DNA of 41,036 nt from a virus. The notes under the pieces were generated by a model. That model saw only the letters and a program-made list of their open reading frames with translations. It made no database searches and was not told the origin of the DNA. Of this stretch, positions 84 to 41,036 are shown piece after piece (positions within the stretch are counted from its first letter, which is position 1; each line of letters opens with the position of its first letter). The stretch covers positions 1 through 41,036 of the IMG/VR virus record IMGVR_UViG_3300046167_000725. One strand, given 5' to 3'. Both the position numbers and the translations under genes were made by a program.

Positions 84-107
84 TTCTATCTCCTTGGCTG
101 AACCGGA

Positions 108-132: not shown

Positions 133-138
133 ACGGAT

Positions 139-1466: not shown

Positions 1467-1473
1467 CAGAATC

Positions 1474-1690
1474 TCAATACAAAATCAGAGGCTTAGCCTT
1501 CTTCAACTTGCCATCCACCCCATAATAAATAGGGACAGTCAATGCTCAGATCCTTCTCCTTCTTGCCTTTAAACACACGGTACTTCTTGCCATCCTCTGC
1601 TTTGAAATCCTTTAGTCGCTTAACAACACGGTAAATAACAACATCACCCAACATTAAGGTGTCACTCTGTGGTGCTATGTAATAACTCAT
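1474..1690 (-). pseudogene. Hypothetical basic protein, frameshifted in this copy
   Basis: The start at 1690 has a strong AAAGGAGG site and overlaps the previous stop as ATGA. The intact version is the 73-aa gene at 38607-38828, starting MSYYIAPQSDTLMLGDVVIY. Here one extra A at about 1541-1542 shifts the frame after the KEKDLS sequence. Removing it restores the reading to a stop at 1474-1476. The last residues also differ from the right copy because of a separate 2-nt net deletion there. Either a sequencing error or a natural null allele; the lysine-rich body suggests nucleic-acid or RNA contact, but no family is recognised. Confidence 0.65.
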
Positions 1691-1839
1691 GCCGCCTCCT
1701 TTACTGGTGCATATCCCATGGCACCTACACACTCACACATGTCCTGTAGGTACACTGCTATCAAGTCATCATGGATACTGCTATTGAACTTAACCTCTGC
1801 TATTAAATGCCCACTCTCATCTATCAATTTATACTTCAT
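1687..1839 (-). CDS. Hypothetical protein, 50 aa
   Basis: The start was chosen at 1839 (MKYKLIDESG...) because this ATG and the purine-rich GGAGGAT/GGAGAG sequence before it are kept in both terminal copies, while the region upstream is altered by a 5-nt indel. The stop overlaps the next start as ATGA. The sequence has a beta-strand-like opening followed by a helix containing the CEC motif. No family recognised. Right copy: 38825-38977. Confidence 0.65.
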   Translation of the reverse strand: MKYKLIDESGHLIAEVKFNSSIHDDLIAVYLQDMCECVGAMGYAPVKEAA

Positions 1840-1866
1840 CATCTCTCCATCCTCCGAGTTGGTTGA

Positions 1867-1894
1867 GTGATCCCGCACTTGGGCGGGGGATCAC
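1867..1894 (-). promoter_or_regulatory. Leader hairpin in the leftward operon
   Basis: Inverted repeat GTGATCCC (1867-1874) and GGGATCAC (1887-1894), extendable with a small bulge, in the transcript between the 24-aa peptide gene and the first 50-aa gene. One arm overlaps the stop codon of the 24-aa gene. Conserved in the right copy. A translation-linked attenuator or a stability hairpin are both possible. Confidence 0.5.
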
Positions 1895-1965
1895 GAAACC
1901 AGCGAGTAAATTATTATTAATACACTCAGCACTATCAGTGCCTGCAAATGTTCATCCTTCCACAT
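1891..1965 (-). CDS. 24-aa single-span membrane micropeptide
   Basis: The peptide starts MWKDEHLQAL and continues with one hydrophobic span rich in I, L and V (about residues 9-23), giving a short charged N terminus and one membrane helix. A consensus GAGGAGG site precedes the ATG at the right distance, and the gene is the first in the leftward operon, about 25 nt downstream of the predicted transcription start. The right copy at 39024-39098 has one difference, a synonymous GTG to GTA. This supports real coding despite the length. Its role is unknown; small phage membrane peptides can act as toxins, holin-like proteins or superinfection-exclusion factors, none of which can be claimed here. 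Confidence 0.6.
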   Translation of the reverse strand: MWKDEHLQALIVLSVLIIIYSLVS

Positions 1966-1994
1966 GTCTACCTCCTCACTATTGATTAATCCAC

Positions 1995-2022
1995 ATTGTA
2001 ACACATTGAGTTAGATAATCAA
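1995..2022 (-). promoter_or_regulatory. Sigma70-type promoter for the leftward early operon
   Basis: Read on the minus strand: -35 TTGATT (2022-2017), 16-bp spacer, -10 TACAAT (2000-1995). The predicted start is near 1988, just before the GAGGAGG site of the 24-aa gene. The site is unchanged in the right copy (39128-39155). Confidence 0.7.
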
Positions 2023-2039
2023 ACTTTATTTAAGCGAGG

Positions 2040-2081
2040 AAACTTTGTGGCCCCGCGTAAGCAATGGGGGCCACACAGTTT
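2040..2081. repeat. Long interrupted inverted repeat upstream of the leftward promoter
   Basis: AAACT (2040-2044) and GTGGCCCC (2047-2054) pair with GGGGCCAC (2067-2074) and AGTTT (2077-2081), a 13-bp stem with one 2-nt mismatch. It lies 18 bp upstream of the -35 box. No T-run on either strand, so an operator or a transcription-insulating element fits better than a terminator. Identical in the right copy. Confidence 0.55.
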
Positions 2082-2535
2082 CTGAGTGTCTTCCTTTATG
2101 TTTGCTTCTCCAGCATCCCCCACTGGTGTCTGCTCAGTGGTTCCTCATCTCCAGCATCCCACGGTGTCTGCTATGTCTTCCTCATCTCCAGCATCCCAGA
2201 ACCTAGCCTGTGTGTTGTGTGTGTAATTCCAAAGTCAAAAGCAAAGTCAAAAGCTTGGATGCCTTCGCAAGCTCAGATACTGCACTCTTTATGACGGTGG
2301 ATGCTACGGCTGGGCTGGTGCTATCCGAACCGGCTCCAGTCGGCTTGGGGACGCCTCCTTCACCTGACATCTAACAACCAGCTAGACATGGGAGGGGTCA
2401 ATTCTGGTTATTAGCACCATGCCATTATGCTTATTTAGTCTGATCAATCAGTAACAATCTGTTGCGATCTTGCCCAATCCATGAGAGAATCTGTTTTGTA
2501 GCAATGAGGCTACAATTATATTTGAGGCTATTCAT
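2082..2535. other. Non-coding spacer with tandem repeats; poor coding signal
   Basis: This 454-nt stretch separates the leftward and rightward early genes. Three copies of TCTCCAGCATCCC occur at 2107, 2148 and 2185, within imperfect 37-41-bp repeats that also share GGTGTCTGCT. A GTCAAA tandem repeat follows at 2231-2254. The part from 2160 to 2250 is the most variable stretch between the two terminal copies. A minus-strand frame (2203-2370, 55 aa) stays open in shorter form in the right copy but lacks a ribosome-binding site. Upstream of 2536 there is a TACAAT (2509-2514) that could be a -10 box, with no convincing -35, and GAGGCTA occurs twice just before the next gene. Confidence 0.6.
2231..2254. 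repeat. GTCAAA tandem repeat, REP-like element A
   Basis: Two perfect units of AAAGTCAAAAGC (2231-2242, 2243-2254), followed by GGATGCC and GCAAGCTC. The same order of parts (AARGTCAAARGC twice, then ATGCC, then GCAAGCT) recurs at 3345-3386. The right copy has only one unit at this site, preceded by a GC-rich hairpin segment. Confidence 0.75.
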
Positions 2536-2985
2536 ATGACTAAGTTATACACACCACGCGACATCAAACTTGCCCTTCTTGATATGTATTCTTATGGGTT
2601 GTTCGGTCGGGCTGGTCGAGCAAGCGGTGAAATGAAAATGACGCTATGCCCTGACACCGCCAACGAGTTGAGAATTTGCTTCAACGTCTGGGGCTACAAG
2701 CTCACCGAAGAGAAGGCTATTCAATGGGCGGCCAAAGAACACCGGAAGGCCCAAGGTAAGAAACCCGACGACGCGCCCACTTTTTATTTTGGTGTAGAGG
2801 ACAAGCAGAGCAAAGCGTTTTTTATTGATCCCGTCGAAAGCCTGATGGGAGAGGATGAGATCGACAGCGGCAACGGACCGCAGGATGACGGGGCTATAGT
2901 GGCTCGCGATACTCAGAACCGAGCGAATGCCAAGACCCGCGCCAAGATGAACCAAGCCGAGCGTGACACGGAGGTAGCGGCATGA
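2536..2985 (+). CDS. Hypothetical early protein, 149 aa
   Basis: No family recognised. Starts MTKLYTPRDIKLALLDMYSY; the middle has WAAKEHRKAQGKKPDD and aromatic-rich strands, and the last 30 residues are charged and helix-prone (NRANAKTRAKMNQAERDTE). A TGAGG sequence lies about 10 nt upstream of the start. It is the first of three overlapping rightward genes, with ATGA coupling to the next. The right copy (39717-40166) differs by few residues but by many synonymous codons, for example six codons in a row within AGRASGE, so purifying selection acts on the protein. Confidence 0.75.
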   Translation: MTKLYTPRDIKLALLDMYSYGLFGRAGRASGEMKMTLCPDTANELRICFNVWGYKLTEEKAIQWAAKEHRKAQGKKPDDAPTFYFGVEDKQSKAFFIDPVESLMGEDEIDSGNGPQDDGAIVARDTQNRANAKTRAKMNQAERDTEVAA

Positions 2986-3152
2986 ACCAGACAGCGAGCG
3001 AGTATCTCACAGCCGAGTATGGCGAGACCCAGCGAGCGATTCAGCTTGAGTTTGATTGGCTTGAGTCTGTGCTACTGGGAGGACCGGCGGAAGTCTACTG
3101 TGAAGTCTGCGGCATTCACTATGATGAGGAGGACCCATGCACCCAGCACTAG
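2982..3152 (+). CDS. Small CxxC protein, 56 aa
   Basis: Starts MNQTASEYLTAEYGETQRAI at the ATGA overlap with the previous gene. It contains one CEVC knuckle (40-43) and a further C and H close to the end (CTQH), which could together form a zinc site. Acidic overall. It overlaps the next gene by 16 nt in another frame, and both frames are kept in the right copy (40163-40333). Function unknown. Confidence 0.65.
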   Translation: MNQTASEYLTAEYGETQRAIQLEFDWLESVLLGGPAEVYCEVCGIHYDEEDPCTQH

Positions 3153-3247
3153 AGGATGAGGAGGAGATTCAGGTTTGCACAGAGTGTCAGGGTTCCAACC
3201 AGATCACACTCCCTGACGGCTCAACCCAGTGTGGAAACTGTGACTAA
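3137..3247 (+). CDS. Mini zinc-ribbon protein, 36 aa
   Basis: Starts MHPALEDEEEIQ and then holds two knuckles, CTEC (14-17) and CGNC (32-35), in the classic CxxC-x14-CxxC zinc-ribbon arrangement. A GAGGAGGA purine tract just upstream serves as ribosome-binding site. It is the last gene before a strong terminator. In the right copy (40318-40428) the cysteines are unchanged. Very small zinc ribbons of this kind are common in phage early regions; targets unknown. Confidence 0.65.
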   Translation: MHPALEDEEEIQVCTECQGSNQITLPDGSTQCGNCD

Positions 3248-3265
3248 GCTGCCGAAACGTAATGA

Positions 3266-3289
3266 CCCCCAGCAATGGGGGTTTTTTTT
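3266..3289 (+). terminator. Rho-independent terminator
   Basis: CCCCC (3266-3270), six-base loop, GGGGG (3277-3281), then eight T. It ends the three-gene rightward operon 2536-3247 and is kept at 40447-40470. Confidence 0.85.
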
Positions 3290-3321
3290 GAAAATCGCCT
3301 CGCTTCGCTCGGGTAGAATGT

Positions 3322-3368
3322 CGCGGCAAGCCGCGTCGTTTATTAAGGTCAAAGGCAAGGTCAAAGGC
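3322..3368. repeat. REP-like element B: AA-centred palindrome plus GTCAAA repeats
   Basis: CGCGGC-AA-GCCGCG (3322-3335) is followed by two units of AAGGTCAAAGGC (3345-3356, 3357-3368) and then ATGCC and GCAAGCT as in element A. Arms are perfect. Unchanged in the right copy. Confidence 0.75.
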
Positions 3369-3683
3369 ATAAATGCCCCAGCAAGCTGGGAGAAGCAACT
3401 GCGCTTTTGCTATGACCTAGCACTGATAGGTGTATAGCTTTGATTAACTTTTACTTTATGGGGACTAGATGTGTGGCAACCAACCTGCCGGTTCCAACGT
3501 TTTTGCTAAGAGAAGTCACTGAAACGTGAGGGAGTGGTACATAGACCAACCTATTATCACTGATCACCTTCGGGAGTAACCGAGGGCTTAGTGGTTCCCA
3601 GCGGTTTGATCGTACTAATAGTTAATCTTGGGTGCCATCTTGACACTCACTGGTACGCATCCATCGGGTCAACTGCCACGGCG

Positions 3684-3718
3684 GGTCAAGGTCAAGGGCT
3701 ACGTTGGCGCAAGCGCCA
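3684..3718. repeat. REP-like element C: GTCAAG repeats plus AA-centred palindrome
   Basis: GGTCAAGGTCAAGG (3684-3697) precedes TGGCGC-AA-GCGCCA (3705-3718). Same two components as element B in reversed order. Confidence 0.7.
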
Positions 3719-3728
3719 GCCGTCTTTT

Positions 3729-3745
3729 CGAGGGGGTACCCCTCG
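3729..3745. repeat. Perfect palindrome with GTA centre
   Basis: CGAGGGG-GTA-CCCCTCG, extendable by one T/A pair on each side. It lies between elements C and D, about 175 bp before the terS start. Confidence 0.7.
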
Positions 3746-3753
3746 AGCTCCCC

Positions 3754-3832
3754 AAGGTCAAAGTCAAAGTCAAAGGCGAAGCCGCGGCGGAGCCGCACCT
3801 TCCTTACCCCCCCATACCCCCCCAAGGGGGGG
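3754..3832. repeat. REP-like element D: four GTCAAA hexamers and a C7-AA-G7 palindrome
   Basis: Four hexamers (AAGGTC, AAAGTC, AAAGTC, AAAGGC) at 3754-3777, then a GC-rich GCCGCGGCGG segment, two C7 runs, and C7 (3817-3823), AA, G7 (3826-3832). Runs like these are prone to length errors in sequencing, yet both copies agree. Confidence 0.7.
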
Positions 3833-3919
3833 CAACGGCAACGTCAGGACCGGAGGTGCCGCTCTAACTTACTAGAAAAACGTATGCTAGACTTTACCGA
3901 AAGGTCAGGATTCTTATCT

Positions 3920-4315
3920 ATGGGGTATGTACAGGAAAGATCAAAGGAATTGAAAGAGACCAAGAGGCAGTTAGCTCATAAGGCTAAGTATTCTACTAGG
4001 CAGGAGATGTCTGTTAGGGAACAGAAAGCAAAGTTGCATGATCTGAAGGCTCAGTTCCTCAATCATAATAAGCTTGGGCCTTTTGTTAACAAGATCTTTG
4101 ATATTGCTATGGATGATGATCACAAGGATCAGATGTCTGCTGTTAGGTTGATTGCTGACAGGGTATTACCCAATCAGTCATTTGCTCATACTTCTAAAGG
4201 TTCTTCAGCCATTCAAATTAATATCAGTGGTCTCAATGTTGAGGTAGCTCAAAAGGAGATAGCTGATAGGGATGCTGAATCTGAGATGATGTGGTGGATG
4301 AGCAGTGATCTGTAG
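3920..4315 (+). CDS. terS: Terminase small subunit
   Basis: 131 aa from the ATG at 3920, which has AGGA 9 nt upstream; an in-frame ATG at 3884 has no comparable site. The N-terminal part is strongly basic and helical (ERSKELKETKRQLAHKAKY), suited to DNA binding. The middle (KLGPFVNKIFDIAMDD, then RLIADRVLP) matches small terminase subunits of marine podoviruses, and the C-terminal part is beta-rich. It recognises phage DNA and loads the large subunit. Evidence also comes from position: it overlaps an HNH gene that overlaps terL. The next start (GTG at 4305) is inside its 3' end. Confidence 0.7.
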   Translation: MGYVQERSKELKETKRQLAHKAKYSTRQEMSVREQKAKLHDLKAQFLNHNKLGPFVNKIFDIAMDDDHKDQMSAVRLIADRVLPNQSFAHTSKGSSAIQINISGLNVEVAQKEIADRDAESEMMWWMSSDL

Positions 4316-4829
4316 ATCTTGCCAATCTGATAAACCCCTATCTGACTTCTTTAAGAACAAGACGTACTCCTGTGGGTATGACACTAAGTGCAAGACCTGC
4401 GTTAAGGCTTACTACACTGAGCTAAACAAGAAGCCAGAGATACGGGCAAAGAGGAATAAGCAGAAGAAGGCGTGGGTAGACCAGAATAAAGAAAAGAGCC
4501 TAGAGATTAAGGCCAAGTATCGTGCCGCTAACAAAGAGGCCATGAATGAATACAGCAGGAAGTGGGCAAAAGAGAACCGAGACCTGAAGAATGCTAACTG
4601 GCAACGCTATAGGGCTAGGAAGCTTCAAGCCACTCTGAAGGATGATCCAGCCATTAACTATATCTACTATGCGGCTGAAGTGATTAAGAAGGTGTTTGGT
4701 GGTAGACCTGATGTTGACCACATTATCCCACTCCACCATGACCTAGTGTGTGGACTTCATGTCCCCCAGAACCTACAGCTAATGAACCCCTCTGCTAATT
4801 ACTCTAAGGGAAACACATGGCGACCCTAG
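4305..4829 (+). CDS. HNH endonuclease between the terminase genes
   Basis: 174 aa, GTG start with GGTGG 8 nt upstream. N-terminal zinc-binding cysteines C3, C6, C29 and C32; a long lysine-rich helical linker (about 45-110); then the HNH core DVDHIIPLHH (136-145), LHVPQNLQLMN (151-161) and a final N-x4-KGN segment (165-170). The cysteine knuckle plus C-terminal HNH order is common in phage nucleases. Overlaps of 11 nt with terS and 13 nt with terL argue for a fixed part of the packaging cassette rather than a recent homing insertion. HNH proteins next to terminases are known packaging cofactors in cos-type phages. Confidence 0.85.
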   Translation: MICRSCQSDKPLSDFFKNKTYSCGYDTKCKTCVKAYYTELNKKPEIRAKRNKQKKAWVDQNKEKSLEIKAKYRAANKEAMNEYSRKWAKENRDLKNANWQRYRARKLQATLKDDPAINYIYYAAEVIKKVFGGRPDVDHIIPLHHDLVCGLHVPQNLQLMNPSANYSKGNTWRP

Positions 4830-32070: not shown

Positions 32071-32454
32071 CTAGTTATATGAAATGATTGTGTAGTTAGG
32101 GTCTGCTTCTGCGGCCCTGACTTCCTCTCTGTAATGCTTACTAATCTCTGCTCTTAGTTCCTTATTAGTCTTCATGATTGCACTCGCCTTCTCTCTTAGT
32201 ATGTCCAAATGACCTTCCCCCCATAACTTCAATAGAAAATCATGGAAGGCTACTGGGTTCTCAGTAAAGTACCTATGGTGGTATCGGCACAGACACAGAG
32301 CATTGTCCATTGACCAGCGTGTTGATTTCCTAGCTCGTCCATAGATGTGTGCGCTATCAGTCCCATCTTGTCCGCAGTATTGACAGAGATGTTTATCCCT
32401 GTGGCGCACAGCTTTACTAAACCAGACATCAGCTTGATCTCTCTTGATACCCAT
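32071..32454 (-). CDS. HNH endonuclease, 127 aa
   Basis: Zinc knuckle CQYC (24-27), then DSAHIYGR (33-40), RWSMDNALCLCRYHH (46-60) and YFTENP (62-67), a clear zinc-finger HNH core; the C-terminal part is a charged helix. It overlaps the stop of the NinB-like gene by one base (TGATG). Placement beside NinB is like lambda nin-region nucleases, so processing of recombination or replication intermediates is likely, not packaging. Confidence 0.8.
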   Translation of the reverse strand: MGIKRDQADVWFSKAVRHRDKHLCQYCGQDGTDSAHIYGRARKSTRWSMDNALCLCRYHHRYFTENPVAFHDFLLKLWGEGHLDILREKASAIMKTNKELRAEISKHYREEVRAAEADPNYTIISYN

Positions 32455-32867
32455 CAGAGGTGTTCTCCCATACTTGGAAAAGGAACAAAGACTCCCAGCT
32501 TCATATTGATGGAGTCAATCATGGCGTTGGCACTATCAGATAATTGAGTGGTCGATAAGCTCCGAGTGCTTTTGATGCCGTACATGCTTGTTATTATAGG
32601 CTTGAAGAACAGTTCTTTAATGGAGTTCTCTGACCACGGCACCTCAAACTCCTCATTGAATGGGTGCTTCTGCATAAACCCTGCATCATTTAAAGCACTA
32701 GCCATGTTCCTAAAGAAAAGGTGAAGGGCATTAGACTGCCTGCTAGATCTATTAGACCTGACCACACTGTATGTCCTGTCTATCCCTTCCTCTGCTTGCT
32801 CAGATACATACTGGCAAAACATCTTGGCCTTGTGCTTATCAGTTACATCCCAAGTAATCGCACTCAT
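32454..32867 (-). CDS. NinB-like recombination protein
   Basis: 137 aa from the ATG at 32867, chosen because it overlaps the upstream stop (ATGA) and has AAAGGTGG before it; a longer frame to 32918 lacks this. Motifs fit NinB (lambda Orf family): RSNRSSRQSNALHLFFRNMA, VPWSENSIKELFFKPI, KSTRSLSTTQLSDSANAMID and the ending KLGVFVPFPS. NinB/Orf binds ssDNA and supports annealing-based recombination, replacing RecFOR functions. Found with an annealing protein gene on the other side of the control region. Confidence 0.8.
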   Translation of the reverse strand: MSAITWDVTDKHKAKMFCQYVSEQAEEGIDRTYSVVRSNRSSRQSNALHLFFRNMASALNDAGFMQKHPFNEEFEVPWSENSIKELFFKPIITSMYGIKSTRSLSTTQLSDSANAMIDSINMKLGVFVPFPSMGEHL

Positions 32868-33112
32868 GGTGTCCACCTTTGAGTTATCCACTTCTTTCTC
32901 CAAGCTACGTTCTCCCACCTCATATCATTGGTAGCATTAGTGAACCTAGCCGCAGGCATGAGCCTGTCTTGAGATGTCCCCATTATGATTGCCTGCCTTA
33001 CCTTACCCTTGTCCCAGCCTGTGCTTTGAACAGCCATCTTCATATCAAATACTCTAGGTAAAACCTCCAGCAATTCACCTAAGTCTTTCTCTGCGGTACC
33101 CACAAAAGTCAT
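32864..33112 (-). CDS. Hypothetical basic protein, 82 aa
   Basis: Starts MTFVGTAEKDLGELLEVLPR; a short helical N terminus followed by a basic, Trp-rich C-terminal part (NDMRWENVAWRKKWITQRW). Overlaps both neighbours by 4 nt, indicating coupled translation within the replication operon. Nucleic-acid binding is plausible by charge. No family recognised. Confidence 0.6.
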   Translation of the reverse strand: MTFVGTAEKDLGELLEVLPRVFDMKMAVQSTGWDKGKVRQAIIMGTSQDRLMPAARFTNATNDMRWENVAWRKKWITQRWTP

Positions 33113-33513
33113 ACGATCTCTCCTCTCTGGTATTTGTTGTATGGAAGTTCTTTTGTTTGTGCCTCTGCCAGCATCTTTTTTACTGACTCAAGCGTGGCAC
33201 CAGCATGTTCAGCTATATCCTCTGCTGTTAGTGTTGATGGTGTTGGTCTGTTCGGCATTGGCTCACATTCGGAGCAATACTCCAGCCATCCTTCATGCTG
33301 TAGCCCTGTTCTTAACTCTATCCTCTTCCAGTTAGGCTCTGATCCTGACTGCCATCCCATCAGCACGTTGTGAGGATAGGCGGCTTTCCATGTTTGGCCC
33401 TGCCTAGCTATCTTTATCATCCTCCATGTTGAGTTGTTCCCGCATCCCTGACACTTGCCTTCGGGTGGAGGGAAGCCATTACCCACATCTGATTGGTCAC
33501 CACCAAACTTCAT
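33109..33513 (-). CDS. Zinc-finger protein of the replication operon, 134 aa
   Basis: GAGGAG lies 6 nt upstream of the start, which overlaps the initiator stop. Two CxxC pairs, CQGC (21-24) and CSEC (80-83), enclose a Trp-rich domain; the C-terminal third is a helical segment (LTAEDIAEHAGATLESVKKM) resembling a helix-turn-helix. Directly downstream of the replication initiator, where lambda has its helicase loader, but no loader motif (Walker A) is present. Function unknown; DNA binding likely. Confidence 0.65.
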   Translation of the reverse strand: MKFGGDQSDVGNGFPPPEGKCQGCGNNSTWRMIKIARQGQTWKAAYPHNVLMGWQSGSEPNWKRIELRTGLQHEGWLEYCSECEPMPNRPTPSTLTAEDIAEHAGATLESVKKMLAEAQTKELPYNKYQRGEIV

Positions 33514-34238
33514 GCCTTGCTCCTCTGGTTGTATGTGCCTTCAAGACACTTGATTACTGTTGATTCTCTAAGCAGAAAGTCTATGTCTGCTACCCAGTTC
33601 TTGTTGTTTGATCCGTGCATCCATTCTGTATTGGCTACATAAGTGAAGTACTCAGACCAAGCAGTGAGATCTGAATTGAATAGATCCTTGTTTCTATGGA
33701 GTGTTCTAATTCTTCCTTTGCGCTGTTTGTTTAGCACTCGGCAAGCGGGAAGATTAGGTAGAAGAGAGTGATATAAATCCACCACCTCCTGAAAAGGTAT
33801 AGAGGTGTTCTTATTAAGGGGTTCCTTATTAAGGGGATTGTGTGACACTGTGTCACCCTCCCCTATGACTGTGTGACACCCCCGTGTATGACTGTGTGTC
33901 ACCCCTAGGGATGACTCTGTGTCACCCTCACTGGCATCTCCAAATATTTTAGGTGCGTGTAGCCAGTAGATGTTTGCTGTCTGCCTACCATTGGTATCGT
34001 ATTGTTCTGCTATGGTCAGCAGTTCAGCCTCTGCTAGATCCTTCATGCACCTGACTACCTGCCTTCTAGATAGCCCTGCCATTCGAGCGATGCGCTCTTG
34101 ACTTGGAAACACACGCCAATCACCATGCCTGCCCATTGCTGTATGCTCATTGAGGCACAGCAACACAAGTCTTGTGCTGGTAGTGAGGTTCTTATCTTGC
34201 ATTTGCTGGAAACACCAGCCTAGATTTGATGCGGACAC
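33510..34238 (-). CDS. Replication initiator protein (lambda O-like arrangement)
   Basis: 242 aa, GTG start with AGGAGG 4 nt upstream. Residues about 14-95 form a winged helix-turn-helix of the HTH_36 type: STRLVLLCLNEHT, then SQERIARMAGLSRRQVVRCM and a wing ending in ANIYWLH. The middle (about 100-142) is low complexity (THSHTRGCHT, GDTVSHNPLNKEPLN) because the DNA beneath it holds origin-type iterons. The C-terminal domain (about 150-242) is helical with WADIDFLLRE-like sequence common in O-type proteins. First gene of the leftward operon. It should bind the iterons and bring in host DnaB or other replisome proteins. No helicase or loader gene was seen. Confidence 0.75.
   Translation of the reverse strand: MSASNLGWCFQQMQDKNLTTSTRLVLLCLNEHTAMGRHGDWRVFPSQERIARMAGLSRRQVVRCMKDLAEAELLTIAEQYDTNGRQTANIYWLHAPKIFGDASEGDTESSLGVTHSHTRGCHTVIGEGDTVSHNPLNKEPLNKNTSIPFQEVVDLYHSLLPNLPACRVLNKQRKGRIRTLHRNKDLFNSDLTAWSEYFTYVANTEWMHGSNNKNWVADIDFLLRESTVIKCLEGTYNQRSKA
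33811..33935. other. Candidate replication origin (iterons inside the initiator gene)
   Basis: Four consecutive iterons of 21-23 bp start with ACTGTGTCAC-type sequence at 33847, 33868 and 33891 and ACTCTGTGTC at 33914, with a partial unit at 33837. Three end in ATG on the plus strand. The first lies in a perfect palindrome GTGACAC-T-GTGTCAC (33842-33856). Next to them is an 11-bp A/T-rich direct repeat TTATTAAGGGG (33811-33821, 33826-33836). Iterons plus an adjacent repeat inside the initiator gene are the lambda-type origin design. Confidence 0.7.
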
Positions 34239-34315
34239 GTTGCCTCCTATTTGCTAGGGGGCTGTGCTACCATCCCAGTGGGTGGTTAGATAACACAGCA
34301 TTCTCCTTTATCTTC

Positions 34316-34346
34316 GTTGACTAGTCCTGCCATAGAGCTAGTCAAC
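34316..34346. promoter_or_regulatory. Perfect 9-bp inverted repeat, candidate operator
   Basis: GTTGACTAG (34316-34324) and CTAGTCAAC (34338-34346) with a 13-bp spacer. The sequence TTGAC also forms part of the -35 box of the leftward promoter (34381-34386), so the same protein could recognise both. Lies a few bases downstream of the predicted leftward start point. A leader hairpin is the alternative. Confidence 0.6.
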
Positions 34347-34358
34347 AGCCACCTTTCT

Positions 34359-34386
34359 ACTTTACTCCTCTCTCTTTACTTGTCAA
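34359..34386 (-). promoter_or_regulatory. Promoter for the leftward replication operon
   Basis: Minus strand: -35 TTGACA (34386-34381, perfect consensus), 16-bp spacer, -10 TAAAGT (34364-34359, 4 of 6). Transcription would start near 34352, leaving a leader of about 115 nt before the initiator gene, containing the inverted repeat. Confidence 0.6.
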
Positions 34387-34451
34387 CTACCACACAAACA
34401 ATGTGCATTTTCACACTGGCATTGTGCGCCTGCTTACCCTATGATCCCTAA

Positions 34452-34467
34452 TGTACTGTGAAGTACA
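34452..34467. promoter_or_regulatory. Inverted repeat before the annealing-protein gene
   Basis: TGTACT-GTGA-AGTACA, perfect 6-bp arms, ending 2 nt before the AAGGAG ribosome-binding site (34470-34475). Either an operator or a hairpin that affects translation of the annealing protein. No good rightward -35/-10 pair was found in 34380-34470. Confidence 0.55.
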
Positions 34468-34484
34468 ACAAAGGAGAATGTAAT

Positions 34485-35102
34485 ATGAGTCAGGACACTG
34501 GGATAGTATCTATCCACGGTAAAAACTACCGCACTGTAGCTTTGCGGGTTAATGAGTTCCGATCTGCTTACCAAGATTGGGGCATCCACACTGAAGTTGT
34601 TAGTGTTAGTGATCAGTCTGTTGTTATGAAGGCATGGATCACTGATCCTGATGGCAGGGTTAGAGGTGTTGGTCACGCTGAAGAATGGCGAGCCGCATCT
34701 AAGATTAACTCTACCTCTGCTCTCGAAAACTGTGAGACCTCTGCACTGGGCAGGGCGCTTGCCGCTATTGGCTTGGCTGGTACTGAGTATGCCTCTGCTG
34801 ATGAGGTAGCTGGTGCTATCCACCAACAGAAAGTGGCTGAGTCTACTGACTACCTGCTTGACCACATGGAAGCAGTCCGCAACAACTGGGAATCTATCAC
34901 TGCTATCAAGCAATCTATTGCTGATAACGATATGACCTATGGTTGCCAACTGTACTCTGAGCTTAGCCATGAGACACAGGAGAGACTGTACAAAGCACCT
35001 ACCAAAGGTGGCATCTTCACTACTGAAGAGCGCACCTACATGAGATCCAATGAATGGAACACCACTATGAAAGAAGTCATCAAGGAGACTGCTAATGGAT
35101 AA
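34485..35102 (+). CDS. Single-strand annealing protein (ERF/Rad52-like)
   Basis: 205 aa from the ATG at 34485, preceded by AAGGAG at 9 nt; a longer frame from 34458 would pass through that site. The first 75 residues form a beta-rich domain (TVALRVNEFRSAYQDWG, then VVMKAWITDPDGRVRGVGHA), followed by the family hallmark STSALENCETSALGRALAAI (76-95) and EYASADEVAGA (101-111). C-terminal half helical and charged. Promotes annealing of complementary ssDNA in phage recombination and concatemer formation. No exonuclease partner gene was seen. Overlaps the next gene by 8 nt. Confidence 0.75.
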   Translation: MSQDTGIVSIHGKNYRTVALRVNEFRSAYQDWGIHTEVVSVSDQSVVMKAWITDPDGRVRGVGHAEEWRAASKINSTSALENCETSALGRALAAIGLAGTEYASADEVAGAIHQQKVAESTDYLLDHMEAVRNNWESITAIKQSIADNDMTYGCQLYSELSHETQERLYKAPTKGGIFTTEERTYMRSNEWNTTMKEVIKETANG

Positions 35103-35415
35103 GGTATATGACAAGCCACTGCCCGAGACAGGCATCCGAACCTTCGTACCTAGTGACCAAGTGTATGCCTTTGCTGGCACACCACAGCAGGAAGGGAAGT
35201 CAATCATTGCTAACATGGTCGTACACCCTAAAGAGTTATGGGAATTTGTTAAGACCTACAAGGCCCAGTACGGTGCTGAAGTAGAGAAGGTTCATCTCAA
35301 CATAAAGCTTAGTCGTGGTGGTAAGTACTACATCACTGTTGATGAGCGCATGTCAGAGCGTGAAGGTGGCGCACCTCAAGCCCCAGCTAAATCAACACTG
35401 CCTTGGGAGAATTGA
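35095..35415 (+). CDS. Possible ssDNA-binding protein, 106 aa
   Basis: Starts MDKVYDKPLPETGIRTFVPS and is coupled to the annealing gene. It has a mixed alpha/beta core with VEKVHLNIKLSRGGKYYITV, then a flexible Gly/Pro/Ala tail ending in LPWEN, an aromatic-acidic tip reminiscent of SSB C-terminal tips that recruit partner proteins. The SSB idea is inference from tail, size and operon; no OB-fold motif was proven. Confidence 0.5.
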   Translation: MDKVYDKPLPETGIRTFVPSDQVYAFAGTPQQEGKSIIANMVVHPKELWEFVKTYKAQYGAEVEKVHLNIKLSRGGKYYITVDERMSEREGGAPQAPAKSTLPWEN

Positions 35416-35418
35416 TAC

Positions 35419-35616
35419 ATGTTTGACTTTGTAAAGTATGAAGAGCTAAAAGAAATCTTCCAGTGTCGCAAGATCAATATCCTCTGCGACATACTGGATA
35501 AGGAGAACATTCCTTACATGATGAATAGCAAGAACAGACCAATGGTGTCACGTCAGGAGCTAGCTAAACGGCTGTCACAGACAAAGCCTGTAGACCCTAC
35601 CATACCTACCTCTTAG
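35419..35616 (+). CDS. DUF4224-like small protein, 65 aa
   Basis: Residues 6-52 resemble DUF4224 (a short helical domain with a GI-P-x-x-x-N-x-x-NRP-x-V core; here ENIPYMMNSKNRPMVSRQEL). In other phages and prophages this domain often sits beside integrase or excision genes, but no integrase is present here. Last gene of the rightward recombination operon. It may be a small DNA-binding accessory protein. Confidence 0.55.
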   Translation: MFDFVKYEELKEIFQCRKINILCDILDKENIPYMMNSKNRPMVSRQELAKRLSQTKPVDPTIPTS

Positions 35617-35861
35617 TCCTGTTCGTTGCTCTCCGTGGCGCATGTGGCTCGTAGTAGCTACCTCTGTGCCACATCCCCCTCTCTCTGTCCTAGTAATTAG
35701 GCTGTCGCCTCTCTCTTTTCCACGTTGTGTGCTAGCCCCGACACTTTCCCCTTATTCTCTGATTCCACCTACAGAACCAGTGCGCGGCAGGGTTTATACA
35801 TTGTGCAGTGCCGGTAAGTGATGACAGCTAGCGGTGCCATCCGAGGAGCCGCGCCTATGAA
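35617..35861. other. Intergenic region between convergent operons
   Basis: 245 nt without a gene. A two-part hairpin lies at 35642-35674: ATGTGGC pairs with GCCACAT, with GTAG and CTAC pairing inside. No T-run follows, so termination here would be weak or Rho-dependent. The right part contains several GC-rich stretches and no other clear signal. Confidence 0.5.
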
Positions 35862-36059
35862 TTAGCTAAATGCCTCTCCATGCAAGAACTCTAGGTGTTC
35901 AAGTGCATCATCTTCAATCTTGAAGTCAATGACCTGACCCTGATACTTGCAGTCATCTAGGTAATAGTCATACAAACCATTGCCTACTGGAGTGATAGAG
36001 GATTTACCCCAATCAATATCATCTGTGCTTACCTTCATAACAATCCGGATCTCTCTCAT
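35862..36059 (-). CDS. Hypothetical acidic protein, 65 aa
   Basis: Last gene of the leftward early operon. Starts MREIRIVMKVSTDDIDWGKS, strand-rich N terminus and acidic C-terminal helix (IEDDALEHLEFLHGEA). Start overlaps the upstream stop by 4 nt. No family recognised. Confidence 0.6.
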   Translation of the reverse strand: MREIRIVMKVSTDDIDWGKSSITPVGNGLYDYYLDDCKYQGQVIDFKIEDDALEHLEFLHGEAFS

Positions 36060-36259
36060 TTGTCCTTCTCCTCTAATGCAGTCCTTATCATGTGACTAAT
36101 AGCTTGCCTGTTATTGACAGTAAACTTTAGCTCGTCACTCAGCCTGTCCTTATATATCTTCAGCATATCTAGTATCTCGTTGGTTACTCCTATTGTTGTT
36201 AGCTTTTCACCACGGGCTGTCGCAGAGAATATTGATTCTGAATCTATTTCGTCGCTCAT
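36056..36259 (-). CDS. Possible ribbon-helix-helix protein, 67 aa
   Basis: After an acidic tail, residues 20-64 read as a ribbon-helix-helix: strand LTTIGV, helix NEILDMLKIYKDRLSDELKF, then NNRQAISHMIRTALEEK as second helix. This is the layout of small phage repressors such as Arc, although the inter-helix part is long. In operon position it could regulate the early operon itself. Overlaps of 4 nt on both sides. Confidence 0.5.
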   Translation of the reverse strand: MSDEIDSESIFSATARGEKLTTIGVTNEILDMLKIYKDRLSDELKFTVNNRQAISHMIRTALEEKDK

Positions 36260-36474
36260 GTATTTGATACCCCTGTAATGTCAGTGTATGTAGTGCCTTT
36301 GCTAGTCAGTATCTCTGTCATTAGCTCCATGTCTTCATCATCTAATGTGCGGAGTACCATGCTCTTAGCATCAGCCTCCCCACTAGCTATGACTGTTGCC
36401 ACATAAGAAGTAGACCTGTTAAAAGACACCTTGTATGTACTCCATACTTTAAGTTGTACAACATTACTGCTCAT
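36256..36474 (-). CDS. Hypothetical protein, 72 aa
   Basis: Starts MSSNVVQLKVWSTYKVSFNR. Two beta-strand-like segments (residues 5-29) followed by a helix (GEADAKSMVLRTLDDEDMEL) and a Thr-rich C terminus; the overall pattern is a small alpha/beta domain. Overlaps of 4 nt with neighbours indicate coupling. No family recognised. Confidence 0.6.
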   Translation of the reverse strand: MSSNVVQLKVWSTYKVSFNRSTSYVATVIASGEADAKSMVLRTLDDEDMELMTEILTSKGTTYTDITGVSNT

Positions 36475-36650
36475 GCTCGCTCCTTAGCTAACTGCAACTC
36501 TTCATCTGCTATGACCTCATCCCAACACCACTTATGATAGGTCATCTCGTCCGTTTTATCTGGCACAGGTATGTGACTAGGCAAGTCATCAGGCCAGTAC
36601 TTAGTATCTTCATCGCTAGTGATAGCTTCACAACACCACTCACATTTCAT
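36471..36650 (-). CDS. Small cysteine-rich protein, 59 aa
   Basis: The ATG at 36650 was chosen over the upstream GTG at 36659 because it overlaps the preceding stop (ATGA) and has GAGG 8 nt upstream. Opens MKCEWCCEAIT and later has HKWCWDEV, giving a CxxCC pair and a distant H/C pair, a likely zinc site. C-terminal end is a charged helix. Third CxxC-type protein of this operon. Function unknown. Confidence 0.6.
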   Translation of the reverse strand: MKCEWCCEAITSDEDTKYWPDDLPSHIPVPDKTDEMTYHKWCWDEVIADEELQLAKERA

Positions 36651-36832
36651 GATGAACACCTCGCTCTTGCTATTGCCATACTCTCCTCATACATCTGATC
36701 TAGCTTGCCCCATCTATCACTGTTGCCAAGCCACTCATCAAATGACTTGGGTGGAGTGTCATCAGTACAGGACAAGTAGATGTCATACTCATCTTCATTA
36801 GACCCACGGGTTTGTGTCTGCCAATCACTCAT
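36647..36832 (-). CDS. Hypothetical acidic protein, 61 aa
   Basis: Starts MSDWQTQTRGSNEDEYDIYL; acidic and aromatic, with a WLGNSDRWGKLDQMY centre and a helical end. The start overlaps the upstream gene end by 8 nt. Small acidic proteins in early operons can mimic DNA or bind host enzymes, but nothing in the sequence proves it. No family recognised. Confidence 0.6.
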   Translation of the reverse strand: MSDWQTQTRGSNEDEYDIYLSCTDDTPPKSFDEWLGNSDRWGKLDQMYEESMAIARARCSS

Positions 36833-37058
36833 CTTCTGTCTCCTTCTGAAACACTGGCACGTATTTGTAGAGTTCAGTACCTACTGTTGTCCTTACCAAT
36901 CGGCACTGCTCCTTGCCGTAGGTAGATATATGCCGAGCATACATATCTAATGCGTCAGCTTTCTCTGGGTCAGAGTAGTAATGTCTCCAGCCTTCACTCA
37001 TCTCATGCCGGTACTCCACTCTGTATATAACCTGATTTGAATTGTAGTCTTCGCTCAT
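36825..37058 (-). CDS. Hypothetical protein, 77 aa
   Basis: The start at 37058 has GAGGAG 7-8 nt upstream; a longer frame to 37073 lacks one. Begins MSEDYNSNQVIYRVEYRHEM; aromatic and charged, with a helix (DPEKADALDMYARHISTYGK) between strand regions, consistent with a small alpha/beta fold. The previous gene ends one base before this start. No family recognised. Confidence 0.6.
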   Translation of the reverse strand: MSEDYNSNQVIYRVEYRHEMSEGWRHYYSDPEKADALDMYARHISTYGKEQCRLVRTTVGTELYKYVPVFQKETEDE

Positions 37059-37059
37059 A

Positions 37060-37218
37060 TTAAATCTCCTCAATGATTGTTACTTGATGGTCTGATACTT
37101 CTGACTCATACAGCATGTGCTTACATGGATAACAGGCCCATGTATCTCCTGACTTCTTCATCTCCTCACCACAAATGTCACAGCTAACCTCAATCTTATT
37201 GCTTGTTACTAGCTCCAT
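37060..37218 (-). CDS. Zinc-ribbon protein, 52 aa
   Basis: Complete version of the gene cut at position 1. Starts MELVTSNKIEVSCDICGEEM with GGAG upstream. Knuckles CDIC (13-16) and CYPC (29-32) with 12 residues between, then a short helix. Links the ArdC-like gene to the small-gene run further left, showing that the operon is continuous in the circular genome. Function unknown. Confidence 0.65.
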   Translation of the reverse strand: MELVTSNKIEVSCDICGEEMKKSGDTWACYPCKHMLYESEVSDHQVTIIEEI

Positions 37219-37273
37219 TTCTATCTCCTTGGCTGAACCGGATGCGCCCCCGAAGAATGAGGGCGCAACGGAT

Positions 37274-38135
37274 TCAGGCTGCCTCCTTCATCTTCACTGC
37301 TACTGCCTCACTGCAATACCTAAGCACCTTGTTAGCCGCAGTACTGGCCTTGATGAACTTGTTACTGTCATCCTTCAACAGCTTGGCCCAATGCCCTAAG
37401 TAACTAGCATGATGCTCAATGTCATAGTCAATGCCATGCTCAGCACACAAGAACACTGCGGATAACTCTGCTACTAGCTCCTCAAAAGCATACTCAGGTG
37501 TACCAAACCTACCTGTCATGTCACGCTTGAGTCTCTTCTCATGCCCAGTACTGTGTGCTAATTCATGGAACATGGTGGATAGGTAACCCTTCACTGTCTT
37601 GAACTGGCACAGGTCAGGCATTGCCACCTCATCTGTTAGTGGCCTGTAACTAGGCTCGCCTTCCCGCATCTTCACACCCAGTGCTACCTTGTAACTGAGT
37701 AGCTGGTGTTAGATCAGCACCATCATGTACAAACACAGGCTCCTTTAACATCTTCAATGCCATCGAACTGCTCAATGCTGGCGTTGTTAGTAACAATCAT
37801 GAACGGATGCCGGGTAATATCACCTGCATCATTGCGTTCCATCTTGCTAAAAAAGTAAATGGGAAATGACTTACGCTACATCATCTCCCTTCTCACCCTT
37901 GAACTTGAACCCAAGACTGATTGCCTTCTTGACTGAGATGTATCGGTTAGATGTATACCCATACTTCTCGTTGTGTACCCAACAGTTAACAGCATTACCA
38001 ATGCCATACTTGTAATCACTGAGATGGTTCATTGGCATACCACCCTTAGATACCCACCCCTTTTGCCAAGGGGCAGTACCATTTTCAATGGCCTTCTAGT
38101 ATTGGCCTAACAACTAGGTCTGACTTAGCTGACAT
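37274..38135 (-). pseudogene. ArdC-like gene, frameshifted right copy
   Basis: Corresponds to 139-996. Single-base insertions at about 37688, 37747, 37870 and 38093 break the frame; only the C-terminal 133 residues with HELAH and EELVAEL stay open (37274-37675). Four +1 insertions within 450 nt, some beside substitutions, suggest low-quality consensus at the end of the assembly more than natural decay. Confidence 0.7.
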
Positions 38136-38471
38136 AAGATGTACCTCCCATTGCTACTTGAGTCTGTGCCTGACGTATCCGCTGAGCATCAAACTGCTGA
38201 TGCACATTGGTATAGTCCTGTTGAATCCTCTCGAAAGAGGCCATCACTATCTGGTATAGCTGTGAATGATCTGCATCTTCAGATATAAACTTCAGCACAT
38301 CATCCATATCAAGGCCGTCACTTGCATCTAGATACTGCATCACCTCATCACTGCTAATGTCATTGTGTTCCATCAATTCAAGGATGCCCTCTTACATCTG
38401 TATGTACCTCTATCTCACCAGCAATAATCTTCAGCATCAATCGTTAGATAACCTTTCACTTCGTATGTCAT
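38125..38471 (-). pseudogene. 114-aa hypothetical gene, frameshifted right copy
   Basis: Corresponds to 986-1330. Start codon and ribosome-binding site at 38471 are kept, but one-base insertions near 38390 and 38421 break the N-terminal part. The last 83 codons remain open with one A to V replacement. Confidence 0.65.
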
Positions 38472-38607
38472 TTAAACTCTCCTCATTAGTAGTTAATGGC
38501 ACGTCATCACAAATAAAACATGCCTCATCTGGTTGCCATAACGCACCACACCCAGTGCATGGCACCAACATTACAGGTGTGAGTTCTACCCAATCGCTAG
38601 TCTCCAT
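38437..38607 (-). CDS. Small zinc-ribbon protein, right copy
   Basis: Corresponds to 1296-1466. Same 56-codon length, same four cysteines. Nucleotide changes include synonymous and conservative ones. The start overlaps the stop of the upstream gene (TGATG), a coupling that is lost in the left copy. Confidence 0.6.
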   Translation of the reverse strand: METSDWVELTPVMLVPCTGCGALWQPDEACFICDDVPLTTNEESLNDIRSERLSND

Positions 38608-38828
38608 CAGAATCTCAATACAAATTCAGACTTAGCCTTCTTCAACTTGCCATCCACCCCATAATAAATAGGGACAGTCATGCTCAGATCCTTCTCCTTC
38701 TTGCCTTTAAACACACGGTACTTCTTGCCATCCTCTGCTTTGAAATCCTTTAGTCGTTTAACAACACGGTAAATAACAACATCACCCAACATTAAGGTGT
38801 CACTCTGTGGTGCTATGTAATAACTCAT
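38607..38828 (-). CDS. Hypothetical basic protein, 73 aa (intact copy)
   Basis: Start at 38828 with AAAGGAGG and ATGA overlap. Strand-rich first half (MLGDVVIYRVVKRLKDF), then a Lys-rich middle (KKYRVFKGKKEKDLSM) and the ending VDGKLKKAKSEFVLRF, missing in the frameshifted left copy. The intact frame here shows that the left copy, not this one, carries the disabling indel. No family recognised. Confidence 0.65.
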   Translation of the reverse strand: MSYYIAPQSDTLMLGDVVIYRVVKRLKDFKAEDGKKYRVFKGKKEKDLSMTVPIYYGVDGKLKKAKSEFVLRF

Positions 38829-38977
38829 GCCGCCTCCTTTACTGGTGCATATCCCATGGCACCTACACACTCACACATATCCTGTAGGTACACTGCTATC
38901 AAGTCATCATGGATACTGCTATTAAACTTAACCTCTGCTATTAAATGCCCACTCTCATCTATCAATTGATACTTCAT
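38825..38977 (-). CDS. Hypothetical protein, 50 aa, right copy
   Basis: Corresponds to 1687-1839, with K to Q at residue 4. The start is preceded by GGAGGATAGAG. The 5-nt difference from the left copy falls just before the start codon, which helps fix the start. Confidence 0.65.
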   Translation of the reverse strand: MKYQLIDESGHLIAEVKFNSSIHDDLIAVYLQDMCECVGAMGYAPVKEAA

Positions 38978-39023
38978 CTCTATCCTCCGAGTTGGTTGAG
39001 TGATCCCGCACTTGGGCGGGGGA

Positions 39024-39098
39024 TCACGAAACCAGCGAGTAAATTATTATTAATACACTCAGTACTATCAGTGCCTGCAAATGTTCATCCTTCCACAT
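39024..39098 (-). CDS. 24-aa membrane micropeptide, right copy
   Basis: Corresponds to 1891-1965, same peptide with one synonymous change. GAGGAGG site and promoter spacing unchanged. Confidence 0.6.
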   Translation of the reverse strand: MWKDEHLQALIVLSVLIIIYSLVS

Positions 39099-39127
39099 GT
39101 CTACCTCCTCACTATTGATTAATCCAC

Positions 39128-39155
39128 ATTGTAACACATTGAGTTAGATAATCAA
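39128..39155 (-). promoter_or_regulatory. Leftward early promoter, right copy
   Basis: TTGATT, 16-bp spacer, TACAAT on the minus strand, as at 1995-2022. Confidence 0.7.
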
Positions 39156-39716
39156 ACTTTATTTAAGCGAGGAAACTTTGTGGCCCCGCGTAAGCAATGG
39201 GGGCCACACAGTTTCTGAGTGTCTTCCTTTATGTTTGCTTCTCCAGCATCCCCCACTGGTGTCTGCTCAGTGGTTCCTCATCTCCAGCATCCCCCCACTC
39301 TGTCTGTGTCTTCCTCATCTCCAGCCTCCCACAACCTAGCCTGTCTGTTGAGCGCGTTGTTCCGCGCATAAGCGAGCCGTCAGGATCGCGAAAAAAACGC
39401 GAGCTACGCTCGCCGCCTACGGCAAAGTCAAAAGCTTAGATGCCTTCGCAAGCTCAGATACTGCACTCTTTATGACGGTGGATGCTACGGCTAGGCTGGT
39501 GCTATCCGAACCGGCTCCAGTCGGCTTGGGGACGCCTCCTTCACCTAACATCTAACAACCAGCTAGACATGGGAGGGGTCAATTCTGGTTATTAGCACCA
39601 TGCCATTATGCTTATTTAGTCTGATCAATCAGCATTAATCTGTTGTGATCTTGCCCAATCCATGAGAGAATCTGTTTTGTAGCAATGAGGCTACAATTAT
39701 ATTTGAGGCTATTCAT
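39156..39716. other. Non-coding spacer, right copy, with REP-like insertion
   Basis: Corresponds to 2023-2535. Between about 39290 and 39425 it differs strongly: a GC-rich segment with GCGAG-CTACG-CTCGC and other palindromic pieces, and a poly-A7, stands where the left copy has GT-repeats and a GTCAAA unit. Only one AAAGTCAAAAGC unit remains (near 39424). Flanks are nearly identical. Confidence 0.65.
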
Positions 39717-40166
39717 ATGACTAAGTTATACACACCACGCGACATCAAACTTGCCCTTCTTGATATGTATTCTTATGGGTTGTTCGGTCGGGCTGGCCGC
39801 GCTAGTGGCGAGATGAAAATGACGCTCTGCCCTGACACCGCCAACGAATTAGAAATTTGCTTTAATGTCTGGGGCTACAAGCTCACCGAAGAGAAGGCTA
39901 TTCAATGGGCGGCCAAAGAACACCGGAAGGCCCAAGGTAAGAAACCCGACGACGCGCCCACTTTTTATTTTGGTGTAGAGGACAAGCAGAGCAAAGCGTT
40001 TTTTATTGATCCCGTCGAGAGCCTGATGGGAGAGGATGAGATCGACAGCGGCAAAGGACCGCAGGAGGACGGGGCTATAGTGGCTCGCGATACTCAGAAC
40101 CGAGCGAATGCCAAGACCCGCGCCAAGATGAACCAAGCCGAGCGTGACACGGAGGAGGCGGCATGA
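39717..40166 (+). CDS. Hypothetical early protein, 149 aa, right copy
   Basis: Corresponds to 2536-2985. Amino-acid changes are few (R to E at 47, N to K and D to E near 112-116, V to E near the end), while codon changes are many and mostly synonymous. The reading frame has no indel. Confidence 0.75.
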   Translation: MTKLYTPRDIKLALLDMYSYGLFGRAGRASGEMKMTLCPDTANELEICFNVWGYKLTEEKAIQWAAKEHRKAQGKKPDDAPTFYFGVEDKQSKAFFIDPVESLMGEDEIDSGKGPQEDGAIVARDTQNRANAKTRAKMNQAERDTEEAA

Positions 40167-40333
40167 ACCAGACAGCGAGCGAGTATCTCACAGCCGAGTA
40201 TGGCGAGACCCAGCGAGCGATTCAGCTTGAGTTTGATTGGCTTGAGTCTGTGCTACTGGGAGGACCGGCGGAAGTCTACTGTGAAGTCTGCGGCATTCAC
40301 TATGATGAGGAGGACCCATGCACCCAGCACTAG
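40163..40333 (+). CDS. Small CxxC protein, 56 aa, right copy
   Basis: Corresponds to 2982-3152; sequence unchanged in the coding part compared. Confidence 0.65.
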   Translation: MNQTASEYLTAEYGETQRAIQLEFDWLESVLLGGPAEVYCEVCGIHYDEEDPCTQH

Positions 40334-40428
40334 AGGATGAGGAGGAGATTCAGGTTTGCACAGAGTGTCAGGGTTCCAACCAGATCACACTACCTGACGG
40401 CTCCACCCAGTGTGGAAACTGTGACTAA
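40318..40428 (+). CDS. Mini zinc-ribbon protein, 36 aa, right copy
   Basis: Corresponds to 3137-3247; two nucleotide changes, one of them synonymous (TCA to TCC), cysteines kept. Confidence 0.65.
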   Translation: MHPALEDEEEIQVCTECQGSNQITLPDGSTQCGNCD

Positions 40429-40446
40429 GCTGCCGAAACGTAATGA

Positions 40447-40470
40447 CCCCCAGCAATGGGGGTTTTTTTT
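40447..40470 (+). terminator. Rho-independent terminator, right copy
   Basis: Same C5-loop-G5-T8 structure as at 3266-3289. Confidence 0.85.
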
Positions 40471-41036
40471 GGAAATCGCCTCGCTTCGCTCGGGTAGAAT
40501 GTCGCGGCAAGCCGCGTCGTTTATTAAGGTCAAAGGCAAGGTCAAAGGCATAAATGCCCCAGCAAGCTGGGAGAAGCAACTGCGCTTTTGCTATGACCTA
40601 GCACTGATAGGTGTATAGCTTTGATTAACTTTTACTTTATGGGGACTAGATGTGTGGCAACCAACCTGCCGGTTCCAACGTTTTTGCTAAGAGAAGTCAC
40701 TGAAACGTGAGGGAGTGGTACATAGACCAACCTATTATCACTGATCACCTTCGGGAGTAACCGAGGGCTTAGTGGTTCCCAGCGGTTTGATCGTACTAAT
40801 AGTTAATCTTGGGTGCCATATTGACACTCACTGGTACGCATCCATCGGGTCAACTGCCACGGCGGGTCAAGGTCAAGGGCTACGTTGGCGCAAGCGCCAG
40901 CCGTCTTTTCGAGGGGGTACCCCTCGAGCTCCCCAAGGTCAAAGTCAAAGTCAAAGGCGAAGCCGCGGCGGAGCCGCACCTTCCTTACCCCCCCATACCC
41001 CCCCAAGGGGGGGCAACGGCAACGTCAGGACCGGAG
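40471..41036. other. Non-coding hairpin-rich region, right copy, cut at window end
   Basis: Corresponds to 3290-3855 with two substitutions only (near 40472 and 40820). All REP-like elements B, C and D and the GTA-centred palindrome are present. The window ends about 65 nt before the terS start position of the left copy. Confidence 0.7.

Follow-up and report, generated by a model that had tools for sequence, protein, structure and literature searches.

A block of short repeats lies within the gene for an O-type replication initiator in the virus record analyzed here (41,036 bases, referred to throughout as the window), and this raises the question of whether the block serves as the replication origin and, if it does, how a replicative helicase is brought to it. 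Origins inside O-type genes are textbook knowledge. We consider it likely that the segment is a replication origin placed in the linker-coding part of its own initiator gene, and that host DnaB is recruited to it either directly or through P0002, the protein encoded immediately after the initiator.

Genome map and the replication region

Positions 37136 onward of the record were found to be ~98% identical to positions 1-3855, with small gaps, such that coordinates above 37136 denote a second copy of the record start. As the two ends overlap, the record probably represents a whole circular genome of about 37.1 kb. The overlap of ~3.9 kb (1-3855 and 37136-41036) displayed small insertions and deletions, in keeping with a circularly permuted genome, and its mismatches may perhaps stem from uncorrected long reads. 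An ArdC-like antirestriction gene (PHROG 7245) was whole at 139-996 and shortened in the overlap copy at 37274-37675. The terminase, portal and tail genes were located on the + strand, while the early block ran leftward; no RNA families or tRNAs were detected in the window.

The initiator gene, encoding P0001 (242 aa; 33510-34238, − strand), was assigned by PHROG 345, Pfam HTH_36 and an AlphaFold2 model, and starts at a divergent intergenic region (34239-34457). Four ORFs of the − strand were examined after it: (i) P0002 (134 aa, 33109-33513), which is zinc-type by sequence and occupies the helicase/loader slot; (ii) P0003 (82 aa, 32864-33112), whose homologues were found by tblastn to adjoin the replication module in the sister phage L013 (96% identity) and in the viral contig L113 (35% identity); (iii) P0004 (32454-32918), which is NinB-like by position and by a 44% tblastn match to the viral contig L023, where its relative matched PF05772 weakly and below the cut-off (E 0.0024); and (iv) P0006 (32071-32454), a NinG/Rap-like HNH protein (PHROG 5034, E 2.7e-16). 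On the other side of the intergenic region, a gene divergent from that of the initiator (34458-35102) encodes a conserved early protein (PHROG 11717, function unknown, E 1.1e-26) with 95% identity in L013. A 65-aa excisionase-like ORF at 35419-35616 (PHROG 4764, E 1.3e-6) hints at a temperate life style.

Repeats within the initiator gene

A repeat search identified the core TGACNNTGTGNCACCC at 33843, 33866, 33889 and 33912, in steps of exactly 23 bp. As read on the + strand, the core search placed iteron cores 1 to 4 at 33843-33858 (TGACACTGTGTCACCC, the closest to the A/T-rich words), 33866-33881 (TGACTGTGTGACACCC), 33889-33904 (TGACTGTGTGTCACCC) and 33912-33927 (TGACTCTGTGTCACCC), respectively. 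Iteron 1 was found to contain a 15-bp palindrome of 7+1+7 form (GTGACAC-T-GTGTCAC, 33842-33856), iterons 3 and 4 shared the symmetry TGAC...GTCA, and iteron 2 was less symmetric. Adjoining the array on its C-terminal side is an A/T-rich word that we predict to be the unwinding region, and the repeat search detected it twice: copy 1 at 33825-33836 (CTTATTAAGGGG on the + strand, CCCCTTAATAAG in the coding direction), which is kept in L113 and L023, and copy 2 at 33810-33821, a candidate unwinding element 15 bp from copy 1. The sequence-only reading had described four iterons, a 15-bp palindrome and a duplicated A/T-rich word, and all of these were recovered; its spacing of 21-23 bp was replaced by exactly 23 bp, and its word of 11 bp by one of 12 bp.

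When the whole 41,036 bases were scanned with up to three mismatches, the core matched four times, always within the initiator gene, compared with a mean of 0.56 and a maximum of 2 matches in 100 shuffles. Autocorrelation over the first 400 nt of the gene reached its maximum at lag 23 with a score of 36, which was equalled by none of 200 codon shuffles. Because a step of 23 bp is not divisible by 3, each iteron is read in another frame than the one before it, and the array does not encode a peptide repeat. GC skew was also considered as an origin test; its cumulative curve turned near 2 kb and at 31.5-32 kb, where gene orientation switches, and because the skew tracks gene orientation it was uninformative on the origin.

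Conservation of the proposed origin plan in relatives

The N-terminal half of the initiator matched the viral contigs L113 (54%) and L023 (52%), and another search with this half returned the same two contigs plus one weak match (L121); the conservation of the origin plan is accordingly that of three sequences, namely the window, L113 and L023. A 23-bp-phased array was found at the same place in both relatives, with different iteron letters, and the L023 array when scored by autocorrelation gave lag 23, with none of 200 shuffles scoring as high. The sequence GAACCCCTTAATAA was identical in the three, the A/T word was equally far from the last iteron in each, and the iteron adjoining the word formed a 15-bp dyad in all three (GTGACACAGTGTCAC, GTGAAAATTCTTCAC and GTAAAGAAACTTTAC in the coding direction). 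The spacing from word to word was 15 bp in the window versus 14 bp in L113 and L023, so that the second copy falls in different frames; its occurrence in another frame in L023 argues that the DNA was kept rather than the peptide. The two-word score was reached by none of 1,000 codon shuffles of the L113 gene or of the L023 gene. Thus, where iterons conserved in relatives of the same initiator had been proposed as a check, the array, its 23-bp spacing and the A/T word were retained and the iteron letters were not. In the coding direction, the winged-helix domain is followed by the four iterons, the A/T-rich word and the C-terminal module; this order is that of lambda O, in support of the proposed lambda plan, and its geometry is kept in L113 and L023.

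Two broader uses of the repeats were tried and set aside. As a sole diagnostic, the A/T-word pattern gave 22 matches in viral contigs, of which only L113 was homologous. The second was to treat linker repeats as iterons across the 195 loci described below that carry the C-terminal module: 163 of 184 loci beat codon shuffles at p<=0.01, with 11 of the 195 left aside for insufficient length. This count was not used as iteron evidence because many best lags were 12 or 14 (54 and 49 loci) and many of the repeats that were inspected were low-complexity. Other O-like phage genes displayed different in-gene repeats, and such repeats are reported to differ among lambda, P22 and L (PMC8022706). In the linkers of the L128, L163, L209, L232 and L263 initiators, which are of another N-terminal type, 7/14-bp repeats of the AACCAATAACCAA type were observed, and these perhaps represent another kind of in-gene origin. 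We take the N-terminus of these five initiators to be DUF1376-like.

The initiator protein

P0001 matched PHROG 345 'replication initiation O-like' (E 7.2e-29) along almost all of its length (residues 8-240) and Pfam HTH_36 at residues 16-74 (E 2.2e-8). Pfam Phage_rep_O gave no match to P0001 at E values up to 1, and its matches to two relatives were below the cut-off (E 0.019-0.048). The suggestion that the initiator family differs from that of lambda is therefore in line with the absent Phage_rep_O match and at odds with the O-like PHROG match. The AlphaFold2 model of P0001, based on 43 sequences (mean pLDDT 78.5), comprised a confident winged helix with helices and strands at residues 5-93, a disordered linker with pLDDT <50 at residues 109-143, and a helical C-terminal end (147-242) with pLDDT of about 84-98 over most of its length. 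On the − strand, the N-terminal winged-helix domain (residues 1-97, supported by HTH_36, the model and structural matches spanning 1-97) is encoded at 33948-34238 and the C-terminal module (residues 147-242, supported by tblastn and the model), a candidate for the helicase-recruiting part, at 33513-33800. The array and A/T words encode about residues 104-143, which coincides with the disordered stretch, so the putative origin falls where the protein sequence can vary freely.

By Foldseek, the winged helix resembled the DnaD N-domain, structures of plasmid initiators and Rep-DNA complexes and many other winged helices, all at E >0.001; the match lists were dominated by the N-terminal domain and gave little on how the C-terminal module folds. 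Searches of PDB sequences with P0001 and with its C-terminal module returned nothing usable, no nucleotide relatives were found in annotated phages, and no close protein relatives of the initiator were found in viral contigs with P0001 alone or in genome contigs with query A3.

C-terminal module and the missing helicase

The C-terminal part of P0001 matched 114 phage records by tblastn and was identified as the module of P22 gp18 and HK022 O. Of 17 reference loci carrying this module, 16 had a DnaB-like gene next, directly or past one small gene (L002-L012, 11/11 by tblastn; L122-L127, 5/6 by annotation), the exception, within 3 kb, being the Ruminococcus phage L125. Similarly, of 80 viral contigs that an alignment of such modules retrieved, 66 had a DnaB in the flank. 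No DnaB_C domain (PF03796) was detected in the window record, compared with control matches in 14/14 genomes; tblastn of the window revealed no homologue of two P-like loaders (L013 and L113) or of three helicases, and P0002 had no match to loader families in Pfam or PHROG. As far as these searches reach, the earlier remark that no helicase loader follows the initiator is upheld. No P-type loader gene was found next to O, and the window does not have a complete lambda O-P module, though it may work similarly.

Given that no DnaB was found in the record, the helicase is most likely that of the host. The module usually adjoins a phage DnaB, and its binding of host DnaB would therefore be an extrapolation from its relatives. 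In P335 phages, initiators are described as acting alone or with a loader (PMC8965321), so going by that account a helicase-less module is in itself not new.

A zinc-type ORF in the helicase slot

P0002 carries Cys pairs at residues 21/24 and 80/83 and an HTH-like end, and its gene overlaps the initiator stop by 4 bp. It matched HTH_Crp_2 weakly (E 0.0067), had no homologues in phages or viral contigs, and gave nothing usable in a PDB sequence search, in which a match to 8vd6 'CAP REPEAT' spanned only residues 95-123. A single-sequence model had a mean pLDDT of 42 and was discarded.

Two sets of loci with the C-terminal module, 195 in total and sampled with a bias since the second query was built from five helicase-less contigs, were divided into 90 with a helicase in the flank and 105 with none. 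A small zinc ORF (C-x2-4-C-x8-30-C-x2-C/H) starting 3-13 bp before the end of the initiator stop was found in 86 of the 105 helicase-less loci versus 0 of the 90 with a helicase; these 86 loci fell mostly into one cluster, and at ~62% identity the zinc-carrying, helicase-less kind made up 5 of 56 clusters and the helicase kind 34. DnaB_C was absent from all 11 zinc-slot records that were searched whole, with both controls positive (2/2). Among the 14 helicase-less contigs of the first set were P-like ORFs (L162, L182 and L184), a DnaC-like AAA+ ORF (L132) and small zinc-type ORFs (L163, L181, L192, L198 and L207, and L140 with a wider spacing). The L162 P-like ORF matched PHROG 10105 (unknown function), as did the L113 and L013 ORFs weakly, and two of the DnaC-like AAA+ ORFs in the slot (L132 and L317) had CxxC motifs near the N-terminus. 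Three zinc ORFs from other loci matched no Pfam or PHROG family, and zinc binding by the slot ORFs is suggested by their Cys/His motifs. In addition, 47 of the 86 zinc ORFs (L163-L306) were observed to end in Phe with at least two acidic residues among the five preceding. Acidic tails of single-strand binding proteins resemble these ends. A search of titles and the starts of abstracts in open-licence literature with limited terms returned no description of an O-type initiator coupled to a small zinc protein.

P0002 shares with this group the C-terminal module, the absence of DnaB and a zinc-type ORF overlapping the initiator stop; it differs in having 55 residues between its Cys pairs versus the 8-30 of the pattern. 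Because of this spacing and the lack of a homologue, P0002 is only a putative member. It may nonetheless be a helicase loader or adaptor that links the C-terminal module to host DnaB, as a zinc-domain equivalent of lambda P or of the N-domain of B. subtilis DnaI, a tentative proposal that refines the main explanation and is compatible with it. Its place in the helicase slot with a stop/start overlap speaks for such a role, as do the recurrence of the slot at helicase-less loci only, the missing DnaB_C in the whole records and the use of the same slot by DnaC-like AAA+ or P-like ORFs elsewhere; a precedent is the N-domain of DnaI, which is described as a zinc fold that binds DnaB (PMC3791466). 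Counter to it are the misfit in Cys spacing, the lack of homologues and the poor model of P0002, the concentration of the zinc loci in few clusters gathered with a query made from helicase-less loci, and the fact that position is not function. More doubtful is the wider idea that these loci represent an undescribed kind of module, in which an initiator with a P22/HK022-type C-terminal part and no phage DnaB is paired with a zinc protein of very small size, either loading the host helicase or forming a bridge to it, with the window as a diverged member that has a lambda-plan origin.

Module exchange in a sister phage

The sister phage L013 was compared with the window by blastn and found to be 96.6% identical over 34356-39155 and 86.2% identical over 32099-33124, with its main aligned pieces being 86-100% identical. 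Between these, the segment at 33125-34355 was exchanged for another cassette in L013, homology resuming at 33124 and 34356. The L013 cassette (3960-4656) carries a zinc-type ORF of 79 aa and a P-like ORF with 37% identity to its L113 counterpart; two 17-bp repeats are located upstream of it (4709 and 4761), and neither the O N-terminal domain nor the 23-bp array was detected in the 35.3-kb record. The array is thus dispensable in that lineage. Furthermore, three C-terminal modules, each with different neighbours, were observed on one origin/winged-helix unit: (i) in the window, the module of P22-type gp18 and HK022-type O; (ii) in L023, another module with a 302-aa ORF after it, whose sequence looks like that of a DnaB-like or RecA-fold helicase; and (iii) in L113, a third module with a 156-aa ORF after it that weakly matched PHROG 2289 'helicase loader' (E 1.4e-4). 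The replacement of the cassette in L013 and the three modules on one unit suggest that origin, initiator and partner move as a block, and this carriage of three modules with different neighbours is part of what is added to the known picture.

The same exchange could mean that the window's cassette is a decayed relic or an import and that replication starts by another route, as it may in L013, which has P-like and zinc-type ORFs and no O domain, while the window has O and no P-like gene. We regard this as improbable given the open frame of 242 aa, the confident fold at both ends of the protein, the regular and intact array, and the retention of the same design in L113 and L023. Still less probable is that the repeats serve the early operon as operators, bound by a regulator or by the initiator in autoregulation, with the origin elsewhere: dyad-symmetric repeats would also fit repressors and the gene does begin at a divergent intergenic region, but the repeats lie some 310-400 bp into the gene, are phased as iterons beside a conserved A/T word and occur in the initiator gene only. 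That they merely encode a repetitive peptide linker with no DNA function is very improbable, for although the linker is disordered in the model and repeated linkers are known in other initiators, the 23-bp phase shifts the frame at each repeat, the repeats are dyads and the A/T word is conserved in two frames.

Proposed mechanism and significance

For an in-gene origin that recruits host DnaB, the explanation we favor, binding, melting, helicase recruitment and any role of P0002 are what we infer, as follows. The winged-helix half of the initiator, probably dimeric, would bind the four iterons at their 23-bp phase, and the iteron-bound initiators would form an O-some, which may strain and melt the adjoining CCCCTTAATAAG words. 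The helical C-terminal module would then bring in a DnaB-family helicase, most likely that of the host, which could be contacted directly or through P0002, placed where relatives keep DnaB or a loader. Any bridging by P0002 would resemble the action of the zinc N-domain of DnaI, by analogy and not by homology.

What is new in these loci is that they can lack the usual phage DnaB and that in many viral contigs a small zinc ORF is present in its slot. If the zinc proteins do act as loaders of host DnaB, their size would be unusually small for such a role, and they would offer a simple system for studying the delivery of a helicase ring to an origin. We consider the helicase-less, zinc-ORF-carrying arrangement a variant worth testing.

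Comparison with known systems

In Pseudomonas, the RK2 initiator TrfA is described as loading the host helicase without a loader (PMC4980987), and by analogy the initiator of the window would bring host DnaB without DnaC; this likeness is one of working only, and kinship of initiator or origin is not claimed. P0002 may be likened to the N-domain of B. subtilis DnaI as a proposed zinc-binding, helicase-contacting domain, with the differences that P0002 lacks the AAA+ part and that the likeness is without sequence or structural homology. Compared with gp18-gp12 of P22 and L and with O of HK022, HK620 and Sf6, the window has a homologous C-terminal module and in-gene repeats that are likewise phage-specific; in those phages the next gene is a DnaB-like helicase, whereas none was found in the window.

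Relative to lambda, the window differs in its P22/HK022-type C-terminal module and in having a zinc-type ORF instead of a P gene, of which none was found; its iteron letters presumably also differ from those of lambda. It resembles lambda in the O-like PHROG family of its initiator and in the nin-region-like genes that come after it. The lambda O gene is described as having four dyad-symmetric iterons in mid-gene and then an A/T-rich region (PMC7466680), and the window similarly has four iterons in the middle of its initiator gene with an A/T-rich region after them. The origin itself would be of the ordinary lambda plan with iterons of its own, and it is the swap of its partner that is new.
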